Shown: piece by piece, positions 50,201 to 56,200 of the stretch
Position numbering within the stretch: the stretch's first letter is position 1
How the letters are laid out: every line of letters starts with the position of its first letter
NCBI RefSeq assembly: GCF_028583425.1
Contig: NC_072807.1
Location: forward strand, 30,633,001-30,697,000
Length of the DNA stretch: 64,000 bases
Direction: 5' to 3'
From: Eublepharis macularius
Lineage: Eukaryota > Chordata > Lepidosauria > Squamata > Eublepharidae
Translations under genes and position numbers: made by a program
The notes under the pieces: model-generated
Told to the model about the DNA's origin: nothing
The model's database searches: none
What the model saw: only the letters and a program-made list of their open reading frames with translations

Positions 50201-53200
50201 TACTCTTAGGGAAAAAAGCTTAGATCCCTTTTCCTCACTTTAGTAGCCTTTCACTGGCAAGAGCACAAGCATGAGATTTGGAACTCCGTGCATTCCCCTT
50301 GCTGGGAAGTGTTGTACTCCTAGGAGAACGGCATTGCATGGCCAATCAGGAATCCTAGTTTCTATAGATCCTGTCACTGCCTAGGCAAATGGCCAGGAGA
50401 TCAGGAAGGGGGGGCATACCTGGGAGAGGGTGGAGTTTGGAAAAGATGTGACGTCTCTTCTGGGGGGATGTGCTAGAAATTTCCCCTAACCTCCGTAGTA
50501 AAGACGGGGGGAAATTTTTAGAGCATCCCTGCGGCCAATTTCCCCCCAGCTTAATTTCTCAAGGTTGGGGCTGTGGGCAGGGAATTCCTCATCGGGCCAG
50601 GGCAATTGGGAAGCCTAGCTAGTGCTTCCTTGGCTTGCCGGCAGGCACCCAGTTAACCCTGTAGGTGAGGACTGACTCCTCCCAGTCTGTGTGTTGGAGT
50701 GGGTATTTTTTTTCTGTTGCCTCTGATGATGGTTTTTTCCTCCCTTGTGCAGCGGGTCTGATCAGCACTTTCCGTGTGTTCGGCTCGCTGAAAGTGGAGT
50801 GGCCTGGTAAGGACAGCAAGCACCCCCGCTGCCCTCCCAAAGGTAATGTGCCTAAAGGTAATACAGACAGGGTAGGAACCTTTTTTATCCATGCTACGTA
50901 GCGCACAGAGGGCTGCTGGGATAGCATGGCTGCACGCTGGTGACTGGCCGGTGGGAGCGCACCGTAGGTTGTCACATGCCGTTTCAGCTTGTCGGCTTGG
51001 GTGAATCCAGTACACTGGTGGTGGTACAAGATGGTGGGGAAAGGGCTGGGGTCCTGGGACATGGAAACCTCTGCTCCAGTCTCCACTCTTCCCAGTCCTC
51101 TGTATGAAGGGAATAACAATAATAGTTGGCTCTTAAAAGCACCCTGCATAAAACTGCTTTGCAGCAAAGGGGTTTGATCTGTGCCTTTTTGTGGACAAGC
51201 AGGCTTAAGTAACGGGGACTGAGCCTTTGCAGCCTTTCACACTAGCTCTTCTCCAGTTACTAACATTGTTCTCTCTGAAATGCCTCCCAAATGGTTCCAT
51301 TCACATCTCCTTCCTCCACCTTTTTAAGAGTGCTGATTTGTCGGACTTCCATTGCAGCTGTGGAACAACTCTGGTTTGGGTGCAAACTGGTAGTGCAACA
51401 GTCTCCACTGATCCAGAGGGGTGGTTGCTGGGTGTAATCCTGTATCTGCCCGCCCTTCCCACTTCTGTATTGCTGTCTTCTCTTACTCTGCTCTGAAGGT
51501 TCTTAGGAAAGTGGGTTTTAATTTGTCTCCCCAATGAAGGAGCTTCTTCAGGTCCTATCTTGAAGCTCAGACTAGACTCCCTATAGGGGAAATGGGGAGG
51601 GACACTTGTCAAATTGGACTCCGTGCCTTTGGGACCGGGAAGGACTGCTGTCCATTGAATGCACCGAGTCAGACCAGTAATCTATCAGGGCCACCACAGA
51701 CTGACTAACAGCAGAGTTCTCTAATGTCACCTACTCCCTAGAAGCACCCTTGGTGGCTGGTTTGATTATTGGTTATTCATGGAAATATCTGTGGTTGGCA
51801 GAACACCTTTATAAAGTATAGGGTATTTGTCACAGCTGTAACTAAAACAAGAATTGCTCAGTTGAGTCTAGTCTGCTGTCTTCACTGATGACAGTGTCTA
51901 AAGTGGTAAATTGGGGCTGTATTGGTGCAGCAGAAAGTACTCTATACACTGGAAGAAGAGTCTTAATCGGCGTAAAGAGAGTTGTTGGTGTTGCTTTCCC
52001 TGCATTGGAGCTATTCACCTGCCACATAGGAATTAGTTTTTGAGTGCCCCTGGGCAAGAAAGTAATCTGTTCTGATCTTGAGCTCGATGAACGTTATGGA
52101 GAGAGGATAGACATTGGTAGAGCAAGAACCAATTAGCAGACCCAGAAGGTATTGCTATTAAGTCTTGCTTATGAGTAGAGATGGGCATGAACGGAAATAC
52201 GAACCAAAATTTGGCGTGAACCGGTGATTCGTCAGAGCCCATTTCTGATGAACCACCATGAATTTTAGGCTGGTTCATCTGGTTCGTTTTTTGGTTCGTC
52301 ACTGCAGACAGCCTGGCACCAATCTATCAGTTTCCTAGGCAACAGGGGATGGACTTACTGCAGACCTTCTGCTGGCCTGGAAGTGACCGACTGACACAGA
52401 AGTTGGTTGTTGTGGGTTTTCCGGGCTGTATTGCCGTGGTCTTGGCATTGTAGTTCCTGACGTTTCGCCAGCAGCTGTGGCTGGCATCTTCAGAGGTGTA
52501 GCACCAAAAGACAGAGATCTCGCAGTGTCACAGTGTGGAACAGATGTAGGTCCTTTGTATCTACTCAGGAGGGGTGGGGTTGAGCTGAGTCATCCTGTAA
52601 GAGTTTCCCAGGGTGTGGAATGCTAATGGCGGGAGGCTTCACTGTATCCTGAGGAGGTTCTTTTGCATATGGATTGGTACTTGATGTGCTAATCTTCTCT
52701 GCAGGGCTATTGTCAGGGATAGAATGTTTTGTTAGCCTGGTGTTTTTCAGAACTGGCAACCATGCTCGATTCATTCTTAAGGTTTCTTCTTTCCTGTTGA
52801 AGTTTTGCGTATGCTTGTGAATTTCAATGGCTTCCCTGTGCAGTCTGACAAAGTAGTTGGAAGTGTTGTCCAGTATTTTGGTGTCCTGGAATAAGATACT
52901 GTGCCCTGTTTGAGTTAGGCTATGTTCAGCCACTGCTGATTTTTCAGGTTGTCCAAGTCTGCAGTGTCTTTCATGTTCTTTTATTCTTGTCTGGATGCTA
53001 CGCTTTGTGGTCCCGATGTAAACTTGTCCACAGCTGCAGGGTATACGGTATACTCCTGCAGAGATGAGGGGGTCTCTACTGTCTTTTGCTGATCGTAGCA
53101 TCTGTTGTATTTTTCGGGTGGGTCTGAATACTGCTTGAAGGTTATGCTTTTTCATAAGCTTTCCCATCTGATCAGTAATTCCTTTGATATATGGCAAAAA

Positions 53201-56200
53201 CACTTTTCCTGTGGGAGACTGTTTTTCTTTGGTTGTTTGATTCATCCTGGGTTTGATTGCTCTTCGGATTTCATTTCTGGAGTAGCCATTTGCCTGAAGT
53301 GCGTGGTTTAGATGATTAATTTCCTCATTGAGAAAGTGTGGCTCACATATCCGTCTTGCACGATCCACTAATGTTTTCATTATGCCTCTTTTTTGTCAGG
53401 GGTGGTGATTGGAGTTTTTGTGTAGGTACCGATCAGTGTGAGTTGGTTTCCTGTAGACCTTGTGACCTAACTGAAAGTTTGCTTTGCGGATGACCCAGGT
53501 ATCCAGGAATGGGAGTTTTCCCTCGATTTCTTTCTCCATGGTGAATTGTATGTTCAGGTGTATGTTGTTGAGATGATTCAAAAACCCCATGGCCACCCCA
53601 TCCATCTACGAATTCTATGAACAGATGGATGGGGTGGCCATGGGGAGCCCACTCAGCCCAGTTATAGCAAACTTCTACATGGAACATTTTGAAAAAACAG
53701 CTCTAGAATCAGCACCCCACAAACCTAGTGTATGGTTCCGGTTTGTGGATGATACATTTATCATTTGGAGCCATGGGGAGGAAGAATTGATGGGGTTTTT
53801 GAATCATCTCAACAACATACACCTGAACATACAATTCACCATGGAGAAAGAAATCGAGGGAAAACTCCCATTCCTGGATACCTGGGTCATCCGCAAAGCA
53901 AACTTTCAGTTAGGTCACAAGGTCTACAGGAAACCAACTCACACTGATCGGTACCTACACAAAAACTCCAATCACCACCCCTGACAAAAAAGAGGCATAA
54001 TGAAAACATTAGTGGATCGTGCAAGACGGATATGTGAGCCACACTTTCTCAATGAGGAAATTAATCATCTAAACCACGCACTTCAGGCAAATGGCTACTC
54101 CAGAAATGAAATCCGAAGAGCAATCAAACCCAGGATGAATCAAACAACCAAAGAAAAACAGTCTCCCACAGGAAAAGTGTTTTTGCCATATATCAAAGGA
54201 ATTACTGATCAGATGGGAAAGCTTATGAAAAAGCATAACCTTCAAGCAGTATTCAGACCCACCCGAAAAATACAACAGATGCTACGATCAGCAAAAGACA
54301 GTAGAGACCCCCTCACCTCTGCAGGAGTATACCGTATACCCTGCAGCTGTGGACAAGTTTACATCGGGACCACAAAGCGTAGCATCCAGACAAGAATAAA
54401 AGAACATGAAAGACACTGCAGACTTGGACAACCTGAAAAATCAGCAGTGGCTGAACATAGCCTAACTCAAACAGGGCACAGTATCTTATTCCAGGACACC
54501 AAAATACTGGACAACACTTCCAACTACTTTGTCAGACTGCACAGGGAAGCCATTGAAATTCACAAGCATACGCAAAACTTCAACAGGAAAGAAGAAACCT
54601 TAAGAATGAATCGAGCATGGTTGCCAGTTCTGAAAAACACCAGGCTAACAAAACATTCTATCCCTGACAATAGCCCTGCAGAGAAGATTAGCACATCAAG
54701 TACCAATCCATATGCAAAAGAACCTCCTCAGGATACAGTGAAGCCTCCCGCCATTAGCATTCCACACCCTGGGAAACTCTTACAGGATGACTCAGCTCAA
54801 CCCCACCCCTCCTGAGTAGATACAAAGGACCTACATCTGTTCCACACTGTGACACTGAGAGATCTCTGTCTTTTGGTGCTACACCTCTGAAGATGCCAGC
54901 CACAGCTGCTGGCGAAACGTCAGGTACTACAATGCCAAGACCACGGCAATACAGCCCGGAAAACCCACAACAACCATCGTTCTCCGGCCGTGAAAGCCTT
55001 CGACAATGACACAGAAGTGACGATTTGCTGACCTGTATGTGATGTTTTGACGAAACAAACATACCAGTTCGTGAACCGGGGCCGGTTCGTGAAATGCGAC
55101 GAACCACGAACCGCATGGTTTGTTTGTCCCCCCCCCCCCCCCCCGGTTGGTGCCCATCTCTAGTTATGAGTAATCCCATCAACTGACTGGCCACTTCTGA
55201 ACTTGGTAGACCTCTCCTCCTTTTTTTATGCAGCAAAGCAATTCCTAACTGCGACATAGGTAGGTGCCCTCCCAGAAGAGAGATCTGCATAGCCCATGCT
55301 GTCTTAAATAGACTCCTTGCCTCCTTCCTCCCAAGGGTATGCCTACCTAGTGTTTGAGTCGGAGAAATCTGTTCGGGCCCTGCTGCAGAACTGCTCCCAA
55401 GATGTGCTAAGCTCCAGCGGTCTGAGTGAGTACTATTTCAGGATGGCCAGCCGCAGGATGCGCTGCAAAGAGGTAAGCAGGCGTTCCAGTCCACGGTCCA
55501 ACCTTTAAAAATGAAAACAACAAAAAAAACCCCTTTCTGAGTTTGACCTTATTTTGGAGTCTGGGTCTTGTCCTGAAACTGTGTGTGGGGGAGTGGATCC
55601 TATCCCTCCAGTGAGCAAAGTTTTTTTTTTTAATTTATTAAAATGTTTATACTCCATCTTTGTATTTGGCTTGAGTTTGGAGCCTTCGTGCAATCTAAGG
55701 AGCCTTCCTTTCCTTTTATTCCCTTCGAAGCTCACTAATTTGTAAATCTTGAGCAGGGGAAAATACATATGCCTTACCTTTTTTGGATGCAAGGGCTAAA
55801 AAGACTGAGACATATTTTGCAATTGCTAAGGTAAATTTAGGATTCTTGTTGCTAAGCGAAAGAGCCAGGGTTTCTGGAGTATAGTGATCCCTTATATTTT
55901 CGAAGAACCTGTATTCGAGCAGGATATGAAAGGATGTATCTATCCTACTAAGGCCACATGGGCAAATTCTGTCAAGATGGGGCCAATCTAAGGAGCCTTC
56001 CTCCAAATGAAACGTTTGTTTTGTTAGAGAACGAGCCAGTTAAGTTGGAGGAAGACTACTTGGACTATAGTTATCCACTAGCTACATGGATAATGCTTCC
56101 GAGAGTGCTGCGTGCAGGTAACACACATAAAGGAGGAACTTGCCTCTGCTTTGGAGTAAAGGATGGTCGTCCTAGAGGCACAGGGTTTTTGTCCTGGGTG

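Follow-up and report, generated by a model that had tools for sequence, protein, structure and literature searches.

How does a single retroelement insertion come to consist of two nearly identical arms facing in opposite directions? This question is raised by a 64,000-nucleotide (nt) stretch of the Eublepharis macularius genome (contig NC_072807.1, positions 30,633,001 to 30,697,000 of the forward strand; hereafter the window, in whose own positions coordinates are given), where a Penelope-like element (PLE) forms a head-to-head palindrome at 52404-55006. How Penelope-like elements insert is still an open question, and according to a 2024 biochemical paper, in the parts drawn on here, what follows the first strand during insertion still awaits validation (PMC11167929). 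Comparison of the window copy with other insertions of its family speaks to this question, since pairs of arms with one tail recur there, and it leads us to consider that the window palindrome is very probably one PLE insertion made by two-ended target-primed reverse transcription.

The palindrome in the window

The head-to-head PLE palindrome at this locus is real, with an antisense left arm, a sense right arm and tail regions as outer ends. Its parts are given below, together with reference positions (F) that are numbered along one full copy, at L033, left unmodified.

52392..52403, + strand: left 12-bp PLE target duplication, TGACACAGAAGT, perfect duplicate
52404..53590, - strand: left PLE arm, without tail, reference F2639 to F1453
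53585..53607, - strand: 23-nt inverted copy of F1286-1308 at the junction, linked to the left arm through a common 6-nt CCCCAT
53608..55006, + strand: right PLE arm with tail, reference F1271 to F2669
53646..53789, + strand: 144-nt stretch of the right arm without left-arm counterpart, from the arm comparison
54977..55006, + strand: tail, the 30 nt between the two outer-end sites, present in the right arm and absent from the left
55007..55018, + strand: right 12-bp PLE target duplication, TGACACAGAAGT, perfect duplicate

When 52404-53590 is compared with 53790-54976, 1184 of 1187 bases are identical (three mismatches), and this 1.2-kb match is far beyond chance. The initial annotation had described a 2.6-kb palindrome with a 14-base loop. 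The head-to-head arms stand, but the mirror is not a full one, given the 30-nt tail and the 144 nt found in the right arm only; a small loop is indeed present, but it measures 15 nt and closes a 23-bp hairpin (53585-53607 with 53623-53645) rather than the 1.2-kb palindrome. An Rfam match to mir-204 at 53569-53661 (28.7 bits against a cut-off of 48.4) was rejected, as it is only this 23-bp junction hairpin, a reminder that hairpins of such kind mimic microRNA precursors.

A single pair of perfect 12-bp duplications around both arms had been reported, and it was found at 52392-52403 and 55007-55018; a target duplication was also looked for at the arm junction of the window and none was found. 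The PLE is nested in a miniature inverted-repeat transposable element (MITE), whose remains are as follows.

52168..52175, no strand: left 8-bp target duplication of the host MITE, CTTATGAG, read by eye
52176..52403, + strand: left half of the MITE, with end TAGAGATGGGCA, interrupted by the PLE, from a repeat search and an alignment to 6 copies
55019..55162, + strand: right half of the MITE, with end TGCCCATCTCTA, followed by the MITE target duplication, from the alignment
55163..55170: right 8-bp MITE target duplication, GTTATGAG, 7/8 identical to CTTATGAG, by eye

This MITE (52168-55170 with the nested PLE), which has TAGAGATGGGCA ends and which we take to be of hAT type, is a very abundant repeat (2498 first-look candidates). 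Six relatives were picked from the 39 other scored copies, the match having to reach the insertion point. When the joined window flanks were aligned to these six copies of the same genome, all six ran through the site with no insert; with 77-84% identity in the best matches, they are relatives of the MITE and not the same locus. The target 12-mer, with one mismatch, occurs in all six; in L057, L058, L059 and L062, it stands at the position given by the alignment. Because there is a single 12-bp duplication, with none at the junction, and because the MITE relatives are uninterrupted, both arms were inserted in one event, as had been proposed from the window alone. Nested PLE insertion does occur in this genome (C5_81106718, described below), which could speak for two separate 5'-truncated insertions that landed side by side in opposite orientation. 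However, the same single duplication and uninterrupted relatives refute such a history, to which we give practically no credence; the rare variants common to both arms and the microhomology at the junctions that are presented below also speak against it.

Palindromes are error-prone, and one locus of the family, C3_126380500, may itself be an artefact. Nevertheless, it is extremely improbable that the window palindrome was assembled from a hairpin read: the tail, the 144 nt and 3 mismatched bases set its arms apart, its flanks show no mirroring, the MITE relatives read through the site, and the pattern recurs in 32 other insertions. Head-to-head palindromes are normal for this PLE family and are not to be thrown out as assembly errors.

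One tail and one target duplication in each pair

The genome (2.24 Gb, 72 contigs) was searched for the family; there were 2927 first-look candidates, and the 40 that were scored gave 35 loci including the window. A second search, for which just the 3' end and tail served as query, listed 40 tail arms; four further loci were taken from it in the order listed, and three of them gave pairs. The fourth, L065 (C5:105312600-105316200), was set aside as an inverted segmental copy of the C5_105270824 locus: its first 984 bases, flank included, are a 99% match to the reverse complement of that locus, about 40 kb away. For the other arm of L065, the likeness falls to 89% over the stretch that matches. 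In total, the sample holds 39 loci and 40 insertions, one being nested in another, and it is biased towards copies that are long and similar to the arm of the window. Head-to-head inverted pairs account for 33 of the 40 insertions, the window included, so that the search for further head-to-head copies with a single duplication, which the initial annotation had put forward, found them in number. The other seven insertions are L065, C3_126380500 and five without a proper pair.

Exactly one arm is tailed in all 33 pairs, a pattern with P = 1.2e-10 if the two ends chose their sites independently at one half. Moreover, each of the 33 has a single target duplication of 11-16 bp (30 exact, two with one mismatch and one read after more flank had been fetched). 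Untailed outer ends lie at F2639-2642 in 29 of the 30 tabulated pairs and tailed ends at F2670-2677 in 28 of the 30, about 33 nt apart, and the overlap between target and element is alike on the two sides (1.4 and 1.2 nt). Both arms start in the tail region in every pair (33/33); those of the window both cover F1453-2639. At C5:81106718-81113500 (L007, L047), one PLE pair lies inside another, and each has its own duplication and one tail; the duplication of the inner pair measures 12 bp, and this pair is a member of a subfamily that diverges more (about 3%).

In LINE-1 twin priming, two primers give one duplication, an inverted segment and a microhomology joint; the segments are copied from neighbouring stretches of the RNA, without sequence overlap, and one alone carries the 3' end. 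A 5' inversion of this kind within one insertion could account for two features found here, namely that a single duplication encloses an inverted segment and that the inner junction shows microhomology. However, arms that span the same sequence up to the tail region, rather than adjacent parts of the RNA, make a LINE-1-like twin priming very unlikely.

The position of the tail also bears on fold-back, or self-priming, in which one cDNA or antisense RNA would fold back at its inner end and copy itself into an inverted dimer. Such a route would account for near-identical arms, for the short hairpins found at some junctions, that of the window among them, and for an excess of nearly equal inner ends that is considered below. 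Yet the tail sits on the shorter arm, the longer arm being without it, in 15/33 pairs, and in 12 of them this arm is shorter by over 50 nt (the arm ends in this comparison, like the junction overlap lengths simulated below, were entered by hand). Because a copied arm, which is the later and shorter one, cannot hold sequence that the longer arm lacks, self-copying is refuted for these 15 pairs. Indeed, the shorter arm lies wholly inside the longer one in 18 pairs, the window among them, and fails to do so in 15.

A self-copy should in addition continue into the flanking DNA. Among 34 insertions in which up to 300 nt of flank was compared (in L063, L064 and L066, the left flank was limited to some 60 nt), only C3_126380500 is mirrored from the element outward; the flanks of C17_32068820 contain a displaced 65-nt inverted match. 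The C3_126380500 palindrome (L034, C3:126380500-126389500) stays perfect for a further 1,936 nt on both sides, within the flanks; both of its arms are tailed and it has no target duplication. It looks like a true fold-back, and as such gives this route a case of its own, or like an inverted duplication or an assembly fold-back, and it was kept apart from the pairs. The initial annotation had put the inverted dimer down to template switching or self-priming. That it is a special product of this kind is not supported, as 33 of 40 insertions are paired and 15 of these pairs have the tail on the shorter arm. Fold-back is therefore an improbable origin for the palindrome. The tail test leaves the window copy, taken alone, undecided, because its tail sits on its longer arm; fold-back for this copy alone is unlikely.

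Source of the two arms and closure of the junction

Variants were tabulated for the arms of 30 insertions and of C3_126380500 (L063, L064 and L066 left out). Over these 31 pairs, the arms of one insertion agree at 364/367 informative sites, that is, sites that vary between insertions. In 11 stricter columns, 3/180 differ within pairs, against 32% after re-pairing, the lowest value in 1000 shuffles being 21.9%. Rare variants common to both arms numbered 43 over 36 pairings (a set that includes five wrong or duplicate ones), compared with a mean of 1.7 and a maximum of 7 in 30 re-pairings. The arm-arm distance was smaller than the median distance to other loci in 32 of the 36 pairings and smaller than that to every other locus in 10. 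Given the agreement at 364/367 sites, it is most likely that both arms derive from one source RNA sequence, as one molecule or two. The arms differ at only 57 of 26,181 aligned bases over the 31 pairs, so the family was active recently, in line with the recent event that had been suggested for the window copy.

The 33 junctions in the middle of the pairs comprise 21 direct ones and 12 with fillers of 1-37 nt. At the direct junctions, the mean overlap is 2.86 nt against 0.67 expected, and none of 200,000 simulations gave a value as high. Element sequence from near the joined ends is held by 7 of the 12 fillers, one of these being a marginal 12-nt match. In both respects, closure of the junction looks like alternative end joining.

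Proposed mechanism and the points that weigh against it

Two-ended target-primed reverse transcription would proceed as follows. The element endonuclease would cut both strands about 12 nt apart, as the duplication suggests, and leave two 3' overhangs, each of which might prime reverse transcription of element RNA from one source, the same source being indicated by the family sample. Each synthesis would have its own internal start site, about 33 nt from that of the other, and for this reason one arm would have the tail and the other not. Each synthesis would halt at its own point, the two cDNA ends would be joined by microhomology or short templated fillers, and fill-in would leave the single 11-16 bp duplication outside the arms. 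In the window copy, the end of the right arm may have folded back over 23 nt before it was joined to the left arm through CCCCAT. An anole PLE protein assayed in vitro acts on both strands of the target, which it cuts and extends, and two internal RNA start sites bound the tail (PMC11167929, in the parts drawn on here).

We lean, with more reserve, towards a wider reading, according to which PLE integration would be inherently two-ended. A dimeric RNA-protein complex would hold one RNA, or two copies from the same source, with start sites about 33 nt apart, and each active site would engage a single start site together with a single 3' overhang of the target, so that every complete insertion would be a one-tail head-to-head pair closed by microhomology end joining. 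If this is true, such an inherently two-ended route would be distinct from one-ended target priming and from long terminal repeat integration, and two-ended PLE integration would explain the inverted pseudo-long terminal repeats (pLTRs) and one-sided tails seen across animals.

Several observations weigh against two-ended target-primed reverse transcription. The tail is on the longer arm in 18/33 pairs, the window included, and these alone could be self-copies stopped at the inner start site. Five of the 40 insertions are without a proper pair. Two of them resemble normal single-arm insertions and carry a duplication of 12 or 9 bp, and the remaining three show neither a clear partner nor any duplication of at least 7 bp. 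The likeness of the arms of a pair could also have come about through gene conversion between them once inserted. There are too many pairs whose inner ends lie no more than 50 nt apart (5, with 1.3 expected; P 0.008); this excess favours one RNA molecule or a shared RNA 5' end in some pairs, and it may be a sign of such a common 5' end or of some fold-back. The arms of C1_217247400 (L044, C1:217247400-217256400) differ at 10/990 bases, of which 3 are polymorphic elsewhere; this is the sole pair with much difference between its arms, and it would either be older or have had two different RNAs as its source. Lastly, the anole in vitro assay gave no start-site difference between strands, in the parts of the report considered here (PMC11167929), and the rule of one start site for each strand is so far genomic only.

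The rule that the genomic record yields for two-ended priming is one insertion, two arms, one tail and one RNA source. The test of whether the tail sits on the shorter arm separates two-ended priming from self-copying, and both the one-tail rule and this test can be checked in any assembled PLE-rich genome and in the existing in vitro assay.

Coding content and Penelope-like identity

The coding remains of the window element are the following.

53608..53984, + strand: reverse transcriptase (RT), C-terminal part; frame open from 53577, in-frame TGA at 53982-53984
52565..53395, - strand: endonuclease-part frame of the left arm, 276 codons; weak T5orf172 match (E 0.0068)
53985..54815, + strand: endonuclease-part frame of the right arm, 276 codons; T5orf172 match with E 0.0066 and 17.4 bits, under the Pfam cut-off of 20

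The RT part of the right arm matches RVT_1 (E 2e-7, 31.3 bits against a cut-off of 29.6) and reverse transcriptases of the PDB (best E 0.00029). For the endonuclease part, a PDB search gave no match, and a single-sequence structure model was too poor to use (pLDDT, the predicted local distance difference test score, of 41). T5orf172 is presumably a relative of GIY-YIG, and the frame contains a GVY...YIG pattern that we take to be typical of the latter. The 276-codon frames of the two arms (271 from ATG) differ at one residue, I/T, just as the initial annotation had stated for the 271 codons. Both window arms are 5' truncated and share the in-frame stop between the RT and endonuclease parts; thus, neither is an intact gene.

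A pLTR layout, in which 75-326 nt of the 3' region stand directly before F1 in the same arm, was found at C3_155246500, C5_105270824, C2_125829800 and C8_57651473. At C17_32068820 (L003 with L045, C17:32068820-32076000), the left arm has a 68-nt upstream pLTR with about 40 nt missing at the join to the frame. The window copy, being 5' truncated, has no pLTR. At L041 (C8:57651473-57660473), a full-length arm that includes its 326-nt upstream pLTR is partnered by a short tailed arm of about that region. With an RT domain, a pLTR at other loci, an optional 30-40 nt tail on one end and a short target duplication, the assignment of the element to the Penelope-like group is borne out. A search of 51900-55500 for an Rfam hammerhead gave no match at E up to 1; letters that we take for a hammerhead-like core were seen by eye only.

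An exon at ~55345-55460 matches CPEB1 (E 4.6e-15) and lies on the right side of the PLE at a distance of about 340 bp, so the window insertion lies near or in CPEB1 and is probably intronic.

Comparison with known systems

The pairs described here resemble LINE-1 twin priming in their inverted segment, one duplication and microhomology joint, and are unlike it in that their arms overlap, both beginning at the tail region in 33/33.

The reports on PLEs are compared through a part of each. In Adineta vaga, head-to-head inverted copies are the most frequently observed form of Penelope families, an optional 31-bp tail is found on one of the inverted pLTRs, and duplications of 8-10 bp, in the cases seen, as well as microhomology are described (PMC3846280). 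Because head-to-head copies and the one-sided tail have already been described there, the window palindrome is not a new kind of object. For these rotifer PLEs, the authors favour self-priming on an antisense template and do not exclude a sense template (PMC3846280). In the literature searched, which includes the consulted parts of PMC3846280, PMC11167929, PMC8969392 and PMC12910113 and has the older subscription-journal Penelope papers outside its scope, one tail per pair as a coupled use of two start sites was not found, and neither were two-ended priming as the origin of the pairs nor the tail-on-shorter-arm test.

To conclude, the gecko family is like the Adineta vaga Penelope elements in its head-to-head copies, one-sided tail, short duplications and microhomology (PMC3846280), and it departs from the self-priming favoured for them in that its shorter-arm tails argue against self-copying. 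It is also like animal Penelope/Poseidon PLEs, such as PAc of Anolis carolinensis (PMC11167929) and Penelope of D. virilis, in having an RT followed by an endonuclease part, a partial upstream tandem copy (the pLTR) and a 30-40 nt tail between two internal RT start sites. Unlike what the PAc report describes (PMC11167929), each of the 33 paired insertions uses each start site once, and their arms most likely share one RNA source.

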